Part shown: piece by piece, positions 36,256 through 59,910 of the stretch | Position numbering within the stretch: the stretch's first letter is position 1 | Layout of the letters: each line of letters starts with the position of its first letter | Assembly: GCA_028823345.1 (NCBI GenBank) | Contig: JAPKBR010000001.1 | Span: forward strand, 118,340-182,339 | Length of the DNA stretch: 64,000 bases | Source: Planctomycetota bacterium | GTDB taxonomy: Bacteria > Planctomycetota > UBA1135 > GCA-002686595 | Reading direction: 5' to 3' | Position numbers and translations under genes: made by a program | Notes under the pieces: generated by a model | The model's database searches: none | Told to the model about the DNA's origin: nothing | Seen by the model: only the letters and a program-made list of their open reading frames with translations

Positions 36256-37170
36256 ATGAAAAGCGCAGTCGTTCTCTACAATCCAACCTCGGGCGCGAGG
36301 AAAGGGGCGCGGGCTGCGGAAGCGGTATCCGTGGGGCTCACTAACGCCCAATGGGAATTGACACGCGTGCCCACCAAGCACGCGGGCCATGCTCTGGACT
36401 TGGCCGCTGAATGGGGTGCACGGGTGGACCTCGTTGTGGTGGTAGGGGGCGACGGGACCGTACGGGAAGCAGCATTTGGACTTCTGGCAGGTGGTCACAG
36501 CACTCCCCTAGCGGTCATTCCCCAGGGCACTGGAAATGTGATTGCCCGGGAACTTGGCATTCCCCTTGGGATGCAGGCGGCGGTGGATGGTTTGAACCAG
36601 GGCGTGACCCGCGAACTCGATGCCCTGCTGGTGAATGGTGAGCTCGTCTTGGCAATGGTGGGTCTTGGAATCGATGCGCGCATCGTTCGCAGGATCGATT
36701 GGGCGCGACGCTGCTGGGGGTTGCGAGGCTGGTATCGGATGCAGGCGGATTCCCTGTATATAGGAGTAGGCCTGAGCGGATTGCTTGGGTCCTACAAGAG
36801 CACCTTTCGAGCCACCTGCGATGGTCGCTTGATCGGGAGCGGTTTCCGCCACGGGGCGGTCTCCAATACGCGCACTTACGGCAAGGGCATGACCCTTTCC
36901 CCGGAGGCGGATGCAAACGATGGTTTACTGGACTATGCCCTGCGCCAACGGTCTGGGTTTGTGCCCAGCTTCCGTACCCTGCTCTGTGCCCAGCGTTGTC
37001 TCGCTCCACCAAGCAGCTTAGTCCTCGCCGGGCAGGGCAAGCACATGCTCTTGGAAGCGGAAGGCCGTCCGCTGGAATGGCAAGTCGACGGGGACTCGCG
37101 GGCTCCCGTGGAAAGCTTGGACATCCAACTGCTGCCCGGAGCCTTGAAGCTCTGGGCCCCGGCTACTTGA
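36256..37170 (+). CDS. diacylglycerol kinase-family lipid kinase
   Basis: LVVVVGGDGTVREAAFGLLAGGHSTPLAVIPQGTGNVIARELGIP; YegS/DAGK layout. Confidence 0.93.
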   Translation: MKSAVVLYNPTSGARKGARAAEAVSVGLTNAQWELTRVPTKHAGHALDLAAEWGARVDLVVVVGGDGTVREAAFGLLAGGHSTPLAVIPQGTGNVIARELGIPLGMQAAVDGLNQGVTRELDALLVNGELVLAMVGLGIDARIVRRIDWARRCWGLRGWYRMQADSLYIGVGLSGLLGSYKSTFRATCDGRLIGSGFRHGAVSNTRTYGKGMTLSPEADANDGLLDYALRQRSGFVPSFRTLLCAQRCLAPPSSLVLAGQGKHMLLEAEGRPLEWQVDGDSRAPVESLDIQLLPGALKLWAPAT

Positions 37171-38485
37171 GCATTTGATCGAGGCTGCGGGCGAGGGCCC
37201 GGCGGGTCCAGTCCACCTGGGCCCGGGGCAGCCCGAGTTCATCCAGGTTTACCTGGGCGGCCGTGCGCCAAATGGTTTCGACAGCACGGAAATCACGCTT
37301 GAGCAGGGAGTCCTGGAAGGCGGCTTGATGGGCCGCCCCGTAGATGATTCCGATGCGGGCGGGGGGGATCTCTTGGGAGAGAATCCCGTGCAAGTCTTTC
37401 AGCACGATTTCGTTGCGCCGATCGAGCAGGATTTCCATCAGATCCCCAAGGCCCGTTGCTTTGGATTGCATGACCTGCTCGGCCCGGGCTAGAACTTCAA
37501 TGGTCACCATGCGCAGCATGGACTGGGCGGATTCCGAGTAGGAAAGCAGGCGCAGCATGTTGCCGATCAGATCCGCCACGAGTGAACTCCCATCGAGGGC
37601 GCTCATCAGCGCGGTTTGATCCGCCTCTCCGCCCTCGAGCCAGCCAACCAATTCTGCCGCCGTGGCGTCCGAGTTGCGCCATTGGGGGCCTAGGTGATTC
37701 ATCACATCGAGCTGGAACACAAGTCCTAGGGCCGCAGCCATGTCCTGCTGGATGCCCCGGTTGTTTTCAATTTCCTGCTCCTGAATGGGGGCTTGATCTT
37801 TAAAGCTGAGGTCTCGCTCCGCATCCTCGCCGCCGGGCTCCCCGTCCTTACCCAGGGATAGGAGGCTAAAGGTTGCTTCGCCACCTTCTTCGGCGGGGGG
37901 ATGGAGCTCGTACAGGAGTGCATGGTTCCAGCTATCCATGAGGGCGAGTTGCCTAATTCGCTTGGGGAGAGCCGCGTGGTCAAGCTTGGTAATGTCCTCT
38001 GGGTAGTGTTCGTGGTTCTTGCGGAAGCGCGCCACGGCGATGGCGGTCCGGCGCATGCGCCGCCGGGTGACACTGATGGCCGCACGGTCTGCTTCGCTTA
38101 CAGTCCCATCTTCATCCACCGCGATGAACTGCCCCCCGACCCCCTCGAAGAGCACCACATCACAGGCGTCGAGTTGTTCTTGCATCCCTGAATAAAACCC
38201 TGTCTCGCCCACGTGCATTGCAGCGCACAGATCGATCCGCGGACCGGTGCTTTGCCCGTCGGAGTCGTGCTGAGAGAACGAGCGCGCCGCCACTTCTAGC
38301 CGCACCCAGGACCCATCCTCCACGAGGCGGATGAAGGGGGCGGGGGAACTCTTGACCTCAGCGGCAGGCTCCTGCGCGACTTCCTCCTGGGCTGCAGCCA
38401 GAATTGGACAGCACAGTGCAGGAATCAGCAGAAGGTTGTGGAATTGAATCATGGTTTTCCTCATCAGGGCCCGGCAGCATCCCAA
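37163..38485 (-). CDS. secreted TraB/TIKI-like protein with inserted GspG-like (T2SSG) segment
   Basis: AAMHVGETGFYSGMQEQLDACDVVLFEG and LLDRRNEIVLKDLHGIL...IGIIYGAAHQAAF are TraB-like; aa ~137-228 (YPEDITKL...DSWNHALLYELHP...FSLLSLGKDGEPGGEDAERDL) looks like a type II secretion major pseudopilin C-terminus. Start may be 38464 or 38452. Confidence 0.65.
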   Translation of the reverse strand: MGCCRALMRKTMIQFHNLLLIPALCCPILAAAQEEVAQEPAAEVKSSPAPFIRLVEDGSWVRLEVAARSFSQHDSDGQSTGPRIDLCAAMHVGETGFYSGMQEQLDACDVVLFEGVGGQFIAVDEDGTVSEADRAAISVTRRRMRRTAIAVARFRKNHEHYPEDITKLDHAALPKRIRQLALMDSWNHALLYELHPPAEEGGEATFSLLSLGKDGEPGGEDAERDLSFKDQAPIQEQEIENNRGIQQDMAAALGLVFQLDVMNHLGPQWRNSDATAAELVGWLEGGEADQTALMSALDGSSLVADLIGNMLRLLSYSESAQSMLRMVTIEVLARAEQVMQSKATGLGDLMEILLDRRNEIVLKDLHGILSQEIPPARIGIIYGAAHQAAFQDSLLKRDFRAVETIWRTAAQVNLDELGLPRAQVDWTRRALARSLDQMLK

Positions 38486-38621: not shown

Positions 38622-39605
38622 TCAATCCAGGTGACACGCCAGGCTGCGATCACCCTTCTGCAGCAATTCCGGCACCTGGTGCGAGCAGCGGTCGCCGGAA
38701 ACCTCGTGGGCCTGGTGGCAGCGGGGGTGGAAGGGGCAGCCCGATGGGGGATTGAGCGGGGAGGGCACATCCCCTCGCAACACGATTCGCTCCCGGGTGC
38801 GTTCGATCTCGGGGTCGGGGTAGGGCACGGCTGAGAGCAGGGCCTTGGTGTAGGGATGGGATGGATTCTTGAAGATCTCTTCCCGGGGGGCCTCTTCCAC
38901 CAGGCGCCCCAGGTACATCACCGCGATTCGGTCGCACAGGTGGCGTACCACCGCCAGATCGTGGGCGATGAACAGGTAAGCCAAGTCAAAGCGCTCGCGC
39001 AGTTCCGCAAGCAGGTTGACGATCTGAGCCTGGATCGAAACATCCAGGGCACTGACCGGCTCATCGCAGACGATCAGGTCCGGTTCCGAGGCAAGGGCAC
39101 GGGCGATGCCGATGCGTTGGCGCTGGCCCCCTGAGAACTCATGGGGATAGCGCTGCACATGGCGCGGGTTCAAGCCCACCGCTTCGAGCAGGGCCAAGAC
39201 CCTTAGGCGTCGTTCCCTGCGCCGGCCCAGGCCAAAGAGGGCCAGGGGTTCGTCCAGGATCTGAGCCACGGTCTGGCGCGGATCCAGGGAAGCATAGGGG
39301 TCCTGGAAAATCATTTGGATCTTGCGCCGGTAGGGCAGCCATCCCCGGCGTGAAAGGGTGGTGAGCTCGACCCCCTCATAGCGCACGCTGCCACTTGTGG
39401 CCGGGTGCAGGCCCACGATGGTGCGCGCGCAGGTGCTCTTGCCGCAACCTGATTCTCCGACCAGCCCGAGGCTCACGCCCCGCTCGATGTTGAAGGACAC
39501 TCCGTCCACCGCGCGCAGGTGCTGTTGGGCGTTTCCCAGGAAGGTGCGCGGCCCCACGGGAAAGTGCTTGGTCAAGTTTTGGACTTCGAGGAGGGGGCGG
39601 GTCAT
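38622..39605 (-). CDS. oligopeptide ABC transporter ATP-binding protein, OppF-type
   Basis: GESGCGKSTCARTIVG, FSGGQRQRIGIARALASEPDLIVCDEPVSALDVSIQAQ; start ATG at 39605 overlapping the OppD stop. Confidence 0.93.
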   Translation of the reverse strand: MTRPLLEVQNLTKHFPVGPRTFLGNAQQHLRAVDGVSFNIERGVSLGLVGESGCGKSTCARTIVGLHPATSGSVRYEGVELTTLSRRGWLPYRRKIQMIFQDPYASLDPRQTVAQILDEPLALFGLGRRRERRLRVLALLEAVGLNPRHVQRYPHEFSGGQRQRIGIARALASEPDLIVCDEPVSALDVSIQAQIVNLLAELRERFDLAYLFIAHDLAVVRHLCDRIAVMYLGRLVEEAPREEIFKNPSHPYTKALLSAVPYPDPEIERTRERIVLRGDVPSPLNPPSGCPFHPRCHQAHEVSGDRCSHQVPELLQKGDRSLACHLD

Positions 39606-40612
39606 GGGCGGGCCTCCGCACTGTCTGCCTCTGCACTGTCTGGCGAGGCATAAAGGGGACAGGCATTGCTGCGGCCTGGGACTCCTGAGGCCAGGAGTTC
39701 TGGCCGTTCGGATTTGCACTCCACCTGAACGTTGGGGCATCGGGGAGCAAAGGCGCAACCCGGGGGCATCTCAGCCAGGTCCGGGGGGGTGCCGGGAATG
39801 GAAGACATTTTTTGGGAGGTGTCCGAGTCCAATCGGGGCACGCTGGAGAGCAGGCCCTGGGTATAGGGGTGGTGGGGGTTCTTGAACAACTGGTGCGTGG
39901 GTCCCTCTTCCACGATGCGCCCCGCATACATCACCGCCACCCGGTCAGCGGTACCCGCAACCACTCCCAAGTCATGGGTGACCAAGATGATTGCGGTGCC
40001 GTGGCGGCGTTGGACCTCCGCCATTAGCTCCAGGATCTGAGCCTGAATGGTCACATCCAAGGCTGTGGTGGGTTCGTCTGCCAAGAGCAGTCGAGGCTCG
40101 CACAAGAGTCCCATAGCGATCATCACCCGCTGGCGCATGCCACCGGACAATTCGTGAGGGTATTGGGCCAAACGACTTTCCGGTTCCGAAAGGCCCACTT
40201 CCCCAAGGCCTACGGCGGCGAGGCGCAGGGCTTCCGAGTGACTCTTGCCCTTGTGCAACTCCAATACCTCGGTCATCTGGCGACCGATGGTGAGAAGCGG
40301 ATTGAGGGAGGTCATGGGGTCCTGGAAAATCATCGAGATCCGGTTTCCCCGAACCTTTCGCAGCTCTGGCTCCGAGAGGGCCGAGATTTCCTGGCCGTCA
40401 AAATGGACCTGACCGGTCATGACCCCGGGGGGCGAGGGGATCAGCCCCAGGAGCGCCAGGTTGGTGACACTCTTGCCTGATCCTGACTCGCCTACCAGGC
40501 CGAGGGTTTCGCCCTCTTCCATGTCAAACGAGATTCCGTCCACGGCGCGCACGGTGCCGTGGTGTGTTTCAAAGCGCACCGCTAGGTTTTTGACAGAGAG
40601 GAGGGGCATCAA
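39602..40612 (-). CDS. oligopeptide ABC transporter ATP-binding protein, OppD-type
   Basis: [61 protein letters not shown]. Confidence 0.93.
39613..39642. repeat. 15-bp tandem duplication (cctcYgcactgtctg x2) encoding DSAEA repeat in OppD C-terminus
   Basis: Read directly; protein ends [14 protein letters not shown]. Confidence 0.9.
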
Positions 40613-56658: not shown

Positions 56659-59328
56659 TCAGTGCTGGGTCTCGAGCTTAGTCTTGACCTGCTCGCGGAT
56701 GTCGGTGATTTGGGCCCGAATCAGAATCATCAGGCTCTCACGCTCATCGTTGTAGCCCTCTTGCTTGAAGAGGAAGCCTATGAGGGGAATCTCGGAAATC
56801 CAAGGCACCGAGGCCCGGCGTTCCACCGTGCGGATGTCCGAGATGCCGCCCAGCAGAATCGAACCACCGTCGGGAATTACCGCCGAGGTGTTGATGCTCT
56901 GGACCTGCAACTCGGGCAACTCGAAGTTGACCGGGCTGGTGTTGCCACCAAGGGTAGTAGAGATGTTGCGCACGTTGACTACCTTGGCGACCGTGGGTTG
57001 GATCTCGAGGGTCAGGTACTGGCGGTTCTCGTGGATCGTAGGGCGCACGTCAAGCACGACACCTTCGATGAGAACGTTGACCTGGGGGTCAGCAACAGCC
57101 TGGAACTGAGCGACTTCCACGTCGAAGTCCTGGATGTAGGCCTTCTGCAAGACAACCGCCACGTATGCCCGTTGGGTGTCGTTGACACTCAGGGTCTGGG
57201 AGTTGACCAACTCAAAGGTGCTCGATTTCTCGATGGCCCGTAGGACCATGTTGATCTCGGCATCATCAAGGAAATCCATCTGGAACGTCATACCGCCGAT
57301 GGTGTTGAGCGCACCGCCAAGGGCCGTGCCGAAGAAGTTCTCCGTGCGGCCTCGGAAGTCGCCGTCGTTGCCATCGTCGAAGAAGAAGCCGGAGGAGGGG
57401 GGGCCAGCGGCGTTCGAGCCATCTGAGCCCGTGCCGCCGTTATCCAGTCCACGGGAGGACATGTCCTCGAGGCCGTTCTGCACGTCGGCCAGATCGACTC
57501 CGTCGTTGCCACGGAAGTCCACGCCGATCTCTTGGATCCAAGAGTCGCCCACGGACATGAAGCGTGACTCGATGGTCACCATGGAGGAGTTGAAGCTACG
57601 CAAGTCTTCGAGGAAGGCTTGCACTTGTCCTTGTACCTCAACCGAGTGGCTGATCAGGATGCCGCCTTCGGAAGGCTCGATGGAAACGCCATCAGCCTCC
57701 CAGGAACCAACCGCGATGTTCTCCTGAATGATGGTGGCCAGGTCGTCGATTTCGATCAGGCGCTGGGTCTCCAGTACGCCGCCGAAGGGGCCGCCGCCGT
57801 CCTCGTCTTCCAGTGCGTCGAGTAGGCGCAATTGGTCGATCCGGGGGCCGGTGAAGTCGGTCAGGCCCATGATCAGGTCCTGAACGTCGTGGTAGTAAGG
57901 CTGGGGCGCGCCGCGGGCCTTGTCAGTGGTGGTGACGATCACCGCTTCGTGACGAACGGTCCAGGTCACCTCTTCGCCGCCCACTTCGCAAAGGAAGTTG
58001 AGGGCTTGCTCGACGGTGATCGGGTTGGGGAAGTTCACGTCAAACACAGCGCCGGCGCTGAGAACCGCGTCTTCCGCAGCGGGATCCACAAGGATCGGCA
58101 GCTGGGTGTAGTCGGCAATGATGCGGATCAGGGGGGAGATTTCCTCTTCCCCTTCAATGCCCGGCAAGACCACGGTGGTCTTGCGTAGCAGGGCGCGCAG
58201 TTCTTGCTCTTCGGCGGAGACCTTGGTGGAAAGGTCCAGACCACGGCGACTCTTGCGAAGCGTAGTGATCCGACGCCATTCGTCCTTACCCGGCATGGTC
58301 ACGTTGTCCGTGTGGGGGATCGTGAGGGCGGCGAGACTTTCGCGCCATCGGGCGAATTGCTCCGCCTTCTCGGTGATGTAAGTCTCGCTTGCCTGATTGC
58401 GTCCGGCGGTGAAGGCTGCTTCGCGGATGTCGTAGGCAGTCTTGTTGCGGGGGTCCATTTCGAGGGCTTGGTCGGCCAGGTCCACCGCATCATCGAAGCG
58501 GCGCAACTCAAAAGCTTGGGATGCGCGGGCCACCATGTTGCGGGTGATCGCTGCACCGCGTTCGCGTTCGGCGGCCTCGGCTGAGCGGATGGCGTCGAAG
58601 GCAGCCTGCTCGGCGTTGTTGCGTTGGGCTTCGGTGTAGGCCATGCGTTCGGAGCGAGCGCGCTCAAGGAGCCCGTCCACTTCGCCTGACATGCCATCCC
58701 AGTTAATTCCCTGGGGGGCGCGGGCCACAGAAACCTGGGCCAAGGAGAGCTCGGCCACGGCCTTGTCGTAGTCACCACGGGAGAGGGCCAGCTTGCCCCG
58801 ATCCAGAAGATCTTGCGCGTCGGACTTGAGCTGCTCAATGCGTAGTTGCCACTCGTCGGTGAGCATTCGGGAGACCGTTCGGAAGTCCCCGTTCGGGTCT
58901 CCCAAGAGGCTGGCGATTTCCGCAGCCAAGGTCTGAACACCGTGATCGTCCGGGGCCAGTTCGAGGGCGCCGGAAAGTTCACGGGCTGCGTCACGCAGAC
59001 GACCGTTTTCTTTGAGGTGGCGTGCCTCGTCCACGTGCATTTCCACGATCAGGGCGCGCGCCTCTCGGCGTGCCTCCTGACGGGCACCAGCATCCTGGAG
59101 GGGGTCATCCTGCATTTCGGCGAACGAAGTTCGGCGGGCGCTGGAAGCGTTGGTGGCGCTGGGTTGATTTTTTGCACCTACAGCAGCATCCACAACAGCA
59201 CCGGCCTCGTTGGCTGTGGTGCTGCTGGTTGCGCTGAGATCGGTGCTAGAGGAGGGCGCAGCGCAAGCTGCGACGAACAGGAGGGATAGCGTTATCGTTC
59301 CGGCGGACCGCATACGGGGGAGCCTCAT
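56659..59328 (-). CDS. TPR-STN-secretin lipoprotein (type II/III secretin family)
   Basis: Lipobox LLFVAACAAPSS; TPR-like helical repeats; STN-like LIRIIADYTQLPILVDPAAEDAVLSAGAVFDVNFPNPITVEQALNFLCEVGG; secretin motif NTSAVIPDGGSILLGGISDIRTVERRASVPWISEIPLIGFLF. ATG at 59328 inside the longer ORF. Confidence 0.85.
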   Translation of the reverse strand: MRLPRMRSAGTITLSLLFVAACAAPSSSTDLSATSSTTANEAGAVVDAAVGAKNQPSATNASSARRTSFAEMQDDPLQDAGARQEARREARALIVEMHVDEARHLKENGRLRDAARELSGALELAPDDHGVQTLAAEIASLLGDPNGDFRTVSRMLTDEWQLRIEQLKSDAQDLLDRGKLALSRGDYDKAVAELSLAQVSVARAPQGINWDGMSGEVDGLLERARSERMAYTEAQRNNAEQAAFDAIRSAEAAERERGAAITRNMVARASQAFELRRFDDAVDLADQALEMDPRNKTAYDIREAAFTAGRNQASETYITEKAEQFARWRESLAALTIPHTDNVTMPGKDEWRRITTLRKSRRGLDLSTKVSAEEQELRALLRKTTVVLPGIEGEEEISPLIRIIADYTQLPILVDPAAEDAVLSAGAVFDVNFPNPITVEQALNFLCEVGGEEVTWTVRHEAVIVTTTDKARGAPQPYYHDVQDLIMGLTDFTGPRIDQLRLLDALEDEDGGGPFGGVLETQRLIEIDDLATIIQENIAVGSWEADGVSIEPSEGGILISHSVEVQGQVQAFLEDLRSFNSSMVTIESRFMSVGDSWIQEIGVDFRGNDGVDLADVQNGLEDMSSRGLDNGGTGSDGSNAAGPPSSGFFFDDGNDGDFRGRTENFFGTALGGALNTIGGMTFQMDFLDDAEINMVLRAIEKSSTFELVNSQTLSVNDTQRAYVAVVLQKAYIQDFDVEVAQFQAVADPQVNVLIEGVVLDVRPTIHENRQYLTLEIQPTVAKVVNVRNISTTLGGNTSPVNFELPELQVQSINTSAVIPDGGSILLGGISDIRTVERRASVPWISEIPLIGFLFKQEGYNDERESLMILIRAQITDIREQVKTKLETQH

Positions 59329-59910
59329 GGAAGAGGAACGTGGGAAAGGGGGGGGGATGACCGCTCGGGAGCGGAGTGTGTGGTCTACCCCACACATCAG
59401 CGTGGGCTACACCATTCCTCAAGAGGCCTCGAAGATCCCTGTCAGGGGTTGCGGGGCCGATTGTGGAGGCGAGAGGATAGCCGAATCACAGCCGGGGTGT
59501 CCAAGGCTGGGGCAGCAAAATATCCACTAGTTTCTGGGTCTGTGGGCGCACCGGTTGGGGACCCCCTACCCGGGATTCCCCTTGGTCTTGAGCCGGGACG
59601 GGAATTCTGGGGACAGGAACGGCTGCAATGGGCAACAGCACCCCGGAGGATCTGGGTGTGGGGGGGGGAGGGGCACTGGGTAGAGAGGGCCTGAAGTGGG
59701 TGCCTAGGCCCTCTATGGGCAGACTGTGAGCCTCAGCCTGAGGGGCCTTTCCCGGCCGGACAGCCCCCATGTGAGAGATTCTCCAGGGGTGCAGGGGTGT
59801 CTTGGCCCATGGACGAGCAGGGGTAGGGCTGGACCCACTTGGTTCCTGCTCCCTGGGCGGCAAAACGGAGACAAACAAGCGACCCCGCTCTGGTGGGACT
59901 CTGTTTGTGC

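Follow-up and report, generated by a model that had tools for sequence, protein, structure and literature searches.

The window, the whole 64,000-nucleotide stretch of Planctomycetota DNA analysed here, encodes a 433-residue protein, predicted to be exported, that consists of a TIKI/TraB-family core with a GspG C-terminal domain inserted into it. The core of this protein (P0001) is broken after residue ~117 by an insert of ~115 residues. An earlier note, made from the sequence alone, had suggested such a GspG pseudopilin piece within a TraB/TIKI-like domain, and the suggestion held, with the T2SSG domain recognised in the window protein and the TraB relationship via its family. An insert unmatched by T2SSG or flanks unmatched by TraB would have counted against the suggestion; the former is contradicted by the window protein itself, the latter by its relatives. 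The open reading frame, its coordinates and the TraB-type motifs MHVGE, VLFEG, DRRNEIVL and IIYGAAH were all found in the window as described there. No description of a TIKI-GspG fusion was found in the open-access literature, which is a provisional result, key TIKI and GspG papers lying outside that scope. The features discussed below are:

37163..38464, minus strand: complete gene for the 433-residue, putatively exported TIKI/TraB-like protein with a GspG-like insert (P0001), based on same-genus homologues
38390..38464, minus strand: probable signal peptide, residues 1-25 (MRKTMIQFHNLLLIPALCCPILAAA), judged by eye and from hydrophobic N-termini in homologues
38114..38362, minus strand: N-terminal part of the TIKI/TraB-like core, residues 35-117, with H84 (AAMHVGE) and E107 (VVLFEG), based on conservation and on PF01963 in relatives
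37766..38113, minus strand: inserted segment, residues 118-233, missing from insert-less paralogues and corresponding to the hhalign gap
37808..38098, minus strand: GspG-like (T2SSG) domain, residues 123-219, based on Pfam PF08334 and on GspG structures matched by profile and fold
37811..37858, minus strand: equivalent of the GspG calcium loop, residues 203-218 (SLGKDGEPGGEDAERD), with D207 and D218, based on conservation and alignment with the GspG loop
37166..37765, minus strand: C-terminal part of the TIKI/TraB-like core, residues 234-433, with D266, R350-N351 (DRRNE) and H379 (IIYGAAH), based on conservation and on the PF01963 matches of relatives
38622..39758, minus strand: OppF-like ABC ATPase that closes the upstream cluster of peptide-importer genes, with 157 bases between the end of its reading frame and the start of the TIKI gene

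The GspG-like insert and the TIKI/TraB-like core

P0001 has same-genus homologues of 46-94% identity across nearly its full length. Pfam T2SSG (PF08334) matched its residues 123-219 with an E-value of 1.7e-6 and 28.5 bits (cut-off 21). The match covers positions 38098-37808, close to the span 37802-38077 that the earlier note had read as a GspG-like segment. The NCBIfam GspG equivalog TIGR01710 matched in the same place (E 4.7e-6), but its 26.7 bits are far under the cut-off of 88.85, which indicates that the domain is GspG-like and that P0001 itself is no GspG. As a single sequence, P0001 gave a weak GspG match in a phmmer search of the PDB (E 0.37). A profile of 67 homologues (A3) found the GspG structures 2kep (9.8e-11), 3gn9 (2.5e-8), 3fu1 (2.4e-7) and 4lw9 (3.5e-7), and the T2SSG assignment of the insert thus stands on both the Pfam score and the profile matches to solved structures.

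The AlphaFold2 model, computed from A3, had a mean pLDDT of 86.9, with values below 50 in the linker on the N-side of the insert (modelled residues 78-84). The insert was modelled as a long helix (modelled residues 90-117), a short helix and strands. When the model was searched against the PDB with Foldseek, the six best matches were all crystal structures of Vibrio GspG (3gn9, 4lw9, 3fu1; probability 0.97-1.00, E 0.0085-0.045), and no match of the whole model fell under E 0.001. The structural model, proposed in the earlier note as a check, agrees with the sequence comparison. The insert shares with the GspG major pseudopilin of the type II secretion system (T2SS) the C-terminal half of the long helix, the DxW(G) motif and the SLGxDG..GG calcium loop. 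It differs from GspG in being embedded in another protein and in having neither the prepilin peptide with its cleavage motif nor the hydrophobic N-terminal helix, both of which are present in the genome's own GspG. Having no membrane helix, the insert cannot serve as a normal pilus subunit.

The core was recognised through its relatives. The earlier note had assigned the flanks of the insert to TraB; this holds for the family, and the window protein's own flanks were not matched by PF01963 (TraB_PrgY_gumN), whether the protein was searched whole or with the insert excised. When 25 aligned insert-bearing homologues (A1) were scanned singly with relaxed E-values, 22 matched PF01963 (best 1.5e-7); T2SSG matched 20 of the 25 when scanned singly (best 3e-10). 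Among 15 aligned insert-less homologues (A2), PF01963 matched 13 (best 9.6e-8) and T2SSG was listed for none. A single protein, L070, exceeded both curated cut-offs (T2SSG 33.4 bits; TraB 32.1 bits, cut-off 26.8), and L073 (39.9 bits) and L129 likewise exceeded that for PF01963. The flanks of the window protein appear to be too diverged for PF01963, and their TIKI/TraB membership rests on the family. A PF01963 search of the own genome gave no match even at E 10, the target gene included, and that scan is thus insensitive to this clade.

In common with the TraB/PrgY/GumN and TIKI family, P0001 has the His, the Glu, the Arg and a second GxxH-type motif, and is likely exported; it differs from them in carrying the GspG-like domain after the presumed catalytic Glu. 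The GAAH of P0001 (H379) fits GxxH, and the first motif in the window protein is AAMH. The insert-less profile gave only chance matches with the PDB by sequence. The insert-less relative L129 was modelled with a pLDDT of 87.9, and Foldseek of its core gave weak matches in the PDB (ChaN at rank 16, E 2.4) and in BFVD, where two of the first 13 are viral proteins with the name TraB. With such matches, the presumed TIKI fold of the core is supported more by sequence families and motifs than by structure search.

Distribution and history of the pairing

Single-sequence searches covered 395 genomes of the phylum and 61 relatives. The homologues formed two classes, one full-length and insert-bearing, the other matching P0001 only before residue ~112 and after residue ~238. 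Alignment of A1 with A2 by hhalign (probability 100%, E 4.5e-54) showed the same core in both, with a gap that equals the insert; the insert-less planctomycete paralogues have a short linker where P0001 has ~115 residues. In 27 tabulated insert-less paralogues that matched A3 in two pieces, the medians of the two breaks were profile positions 79 and 186; in P0001 these correspond to residues 118 and 233, the edges of the insert.

The earlier note had suggested looking for the same architecture in other Planctomycetota, and with the A3 profile insert-bearing proteins were found in at least 20 of the 395 genomes, in 9 families, as counted among the matches listed, with no more than four candidates scored in each genome. 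The match was contiguous and full-length in at least 19 genomes and, in one more (G227), split across contig ends. Many more of the 395 genomes gave two separate matches, the insert-less pattern. We give practically no credence to the fusion being an artefact of assembly or gene calling, a reading that was rejected since the same full-length architecture recurs in dozens of assemblies made independently, one of them the single-contig genome G373. Named genomes, when scanned, gave 80 loci; nearly all of the readable ones have the insert, and most bear the label Planctomycetota or Phycisphaerales. Three insert-less loci came from Verrucomicrobiota or Kiritimatiellota. Two loci labelled Limnohabitans and Vicinamibacteraceae (L122 and L111) fall inside planctomycete groups in the tree and are probably from mislabelled bins. 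In two Pirellula bins (L131, L132) the insert-bearing homologues lie in frames of 855 residues, ~430 residues beyond the usual length.

In the tree of the core, from which the insert columns were excluded, the insert label takes 4 changes, and both L024 and the insert-less proteins of Verrucomicrobiota/Kiritimatiellota fall within groups that bear the insert. The best core tree does not unite all insert-bearing proteins in one clade, and such a clade is not rejected (p-AU 0.33). In the tree of the T2SSG domain a branch with an SH-aLRT of 93 separates all 77 TIKI inserts from true GspGs and from other fusions. The simplest reading, which is unproven, is one ancient insertion followed by few losses.

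A second form of the pairing, beyond what the earlier note describes, was also found. L043 combines an insert-less TIKI core with a C-terminal T2SSG match, and its relatives, from a sister family in the order of the window organism, keep this arrangement (among 14 aligned, T2SSG in 14, best 1.1e-19; TraB in 12, best 2.3e-8). These proteins (L185-L200) contain the same two parts as P0001, but the head is C-terminal, in one copy or, in L195 and L199, in two. A calcium-type loop of the form GxD...DD occurs in 13 of the 14 C-terminal fusions, compared with SLGxDG..GG in most inserts. Based on the different position and loop type, the TIKI core and the GspG head have probably been joined at least twice.

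Conservation, gene neighbourhood and proposed function

In 64 insert-bearing homologues H84, E107, D266, R350 and H379 are invariant (64/64) and N351 is present in 63, residue numbers being the listed alignment positions plus 34. The His/Glu/Arg/His set of the core would form the catalytic site. That the core instead sequesters a peptide or other ligand, with the GspG head as an interaction platform, is very doubtful in our view. Activity does vary within the superfamily, in which PMT is without the catalytic set and metal dependence differs (PMC6254334), and by Foldseek the core resembles characterised TIKI proteins weakly, but an invariant set in all 64 sequences is unlike most pseudoenzymes.

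The insert is similarly constrained in the same 64 homologues: D177 is conserved in all, W179 in 63, S203 and G205 in 62, and the calcium-loop aspartates D207 and D218 in 60 and 61, respectively. In a GspG structure residues 114-125 coordinate a Ca2+, the side chains of D117, T122 and D125 taking part (PMC3396595), and pseudopilin activity needs bound calcium, according to work cited in PMC3396595. Compared with L056, a relative of 96% identity, the insert of the window protein has a dN of 0.031 and a dS of 0.214, and the C-terminal core a dN of 0.009 and a dS of 0.148. The insert is thus under purifying selection, weaker than that on the C-terminal core, and evolves faster than the latter. 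The calcium loop has been lost in a few relatives (L013, L014, L017), and together with the nested insert-less proteins this indicates that some lineages can do without the insert.

Such faster evolution and occasional loss of loop or insert would also be expected if the head were a Ca2+-stabilised structural decoration, serving folding or stability only and spread because the phylum is rich in pseudopilin genes to copy. Proteins with prepilin motifs are heavily expanded in Planctomycetes (PMC8567305), and the insert-less paralogues are more widespread than the insert-bearing proteins. The calcium loop and the DxW motif are, however, kept at ~90-100% in the 64 diverged homologues, and the TIKI-GspG pairing recurs in another arrangement, both of which argue against decoration; we consider this explanation possible, on the unlikely side.

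In the genus of the window organism the TIKI-GspG gene lies downstream of OppA/B/C/D/F-like genes, named from their sequences, and the order is conserved within the genus. No terminator-like site was found by a simple scan of the minus strand between the OppF-like and TIKI genes. The location next to the Opp genes, observed in this genus only, recalls the PrgY-PrgZ-Opp set of Enterococcus, in which PrgY is believed to break down a peptide pheromone taken up by PrgZ and Opp (PMC7117660). Elsewhere the neighbours are different: in Phycisphaerales they are TolQ/ExbB-like and isoprenoid genes, and in 17 loci (e.g. L088, L112 and L126) a TolQ/ExbB-like gene is directly upstream, near dxs-, ispA- and ispG-like genes, again with names read from sequence.

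The reading that we prefer, with a probability of about 0.4, is that P0001 is an exported hydrolase of the TIKI/TraB/PrgY kind, in which a Ca2+-stabilised GspG head recruits or gates substrates, likely peptides, at the rim of the active site. The protein would be located in the periplasm or outside the cell, and the head would fold around Ca2+ once outside the cytoplasm. As the gene follows the Opp operon in the window genus, the likeliest substrates there would be peptides that are trimmed or removed before uptake. By the breaks in the insert-less paralogues, the insert starts ~10 residues past E107, which ends a modelled strand; the junction would thus be near the presumed active-site face, and the head may lie at the rim, although the low pLDDT of the N-side linker weakens this placement. 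In the C-terminal fusions a long stretch of sequence separates the head from the catalytic Glu, which speaks against the rim position being strictly needed, and at the same time the recurrence of the TIKI-T2SSG pairing in these fusions suggests a functional tie between the two parts.

Appended domains are frequent in TIKI enzymes, and deletion of the N-lobe of VvRRSP abolishes activity (PMC6254334). Since appended domains can be essential, a recruiting or gating role is proposed for the GspG head. VvRRSP, a TIKI-family endopeptidase, resembles P0001 in having a TIKI core and an appended domain, used in VvRRSP for substrate recruitment (PMC6254334). It differs from P0001 in that the appended fold is unlike GspG and is N-terminal instead of following the catalytic Glu, and in its 2His/2Glu set.

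GspG heads on other planctomycete proteins

Of the 61 Planctomycetota genomes sampled, 59 contain PF08334, in many cases within long open frames. By translation and Pfam, GspG heads were recognised on an M28 peptidase, on a DUF4340 and a DUF3352-like protein, in a leucine-rich-repeat (LRR) protein, as two on one HEAT protein and as four in tandem. The M28 peptidase (L138:1492-3135, minus strand, contig C73 of the own genome; 122.6 bits) has a C-terminal T2SSG match of 22.6 bits, with a cut-off of 21. In the LRR protein (L175, G005:C18) the head is located between LRR blocks (T2SSG 48.8 bits). The DUF4340-type proteins L168, L181 and L184 have a GspG-like head in the C-terminal half, confirmed by Pfam in L168. 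Four tandem heads were found in L026 (T2SSG 139.4 bits in four stretches) and, by eye, in L178. We found no paper in the open-access literature on GspG heads across unrelated planctomycete proteins, which is likewise provisional. Planctomycete matches annotated as 'type II secretion protein G' may be other proteins that bear a GspG head.

Since the head is a homologue of GspG, it could dock the enzyme onto the type II secretion system, at the pseudopilus or the secretin, for passage across the outer membrane or for retention at the apparatus. The own genome encodes GspF, GspG and GspH/GspI-like proteins and a secretin on one contig, the head occurs on unrelated proteins of which many have N-terminal export signals, and its occurrence both internally and C-terminally fits a portable tag. 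On the other hand, GspG assembly relies mainly on the N-terminal helix, absent from the head, and no T2SS gene was recognised beside the TIKI-GspG gene in the neighbourhoods examined. Nor do we know of a T2SS substrate that is recognised via a pilin-like domain. Docking is in our judgement unlikely for P0001. The wider form of this idea, in which the planctomycete GspG head is a portable T2SS docking tag on exported enzymes and binding proteins and the TIKI insert is one widely conserved case, is quite improbable; if true, the head would be a T2SS docking domain recognisable from sequence. The window itself contains, at 56659-59397 on the minus strand, a gene for a 912-residue protein matched by PF00263 (secretin); the genome has four such matches.

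A subunit of a secretion nanomachine, minus its membrane helix, is reusable as an accessory domain, in TIKI proteins both as an insert near the presumed catalytic site and as a separate C-terminal fusion. Proteins with the insert, with a C-terminal fusion, with a double fusion and with no such domain make up a natural experiment on the role of appended domains in TIKI enzymes. The same variants also bear on whether pseudopilin heads address proteins to the type II secretion system.
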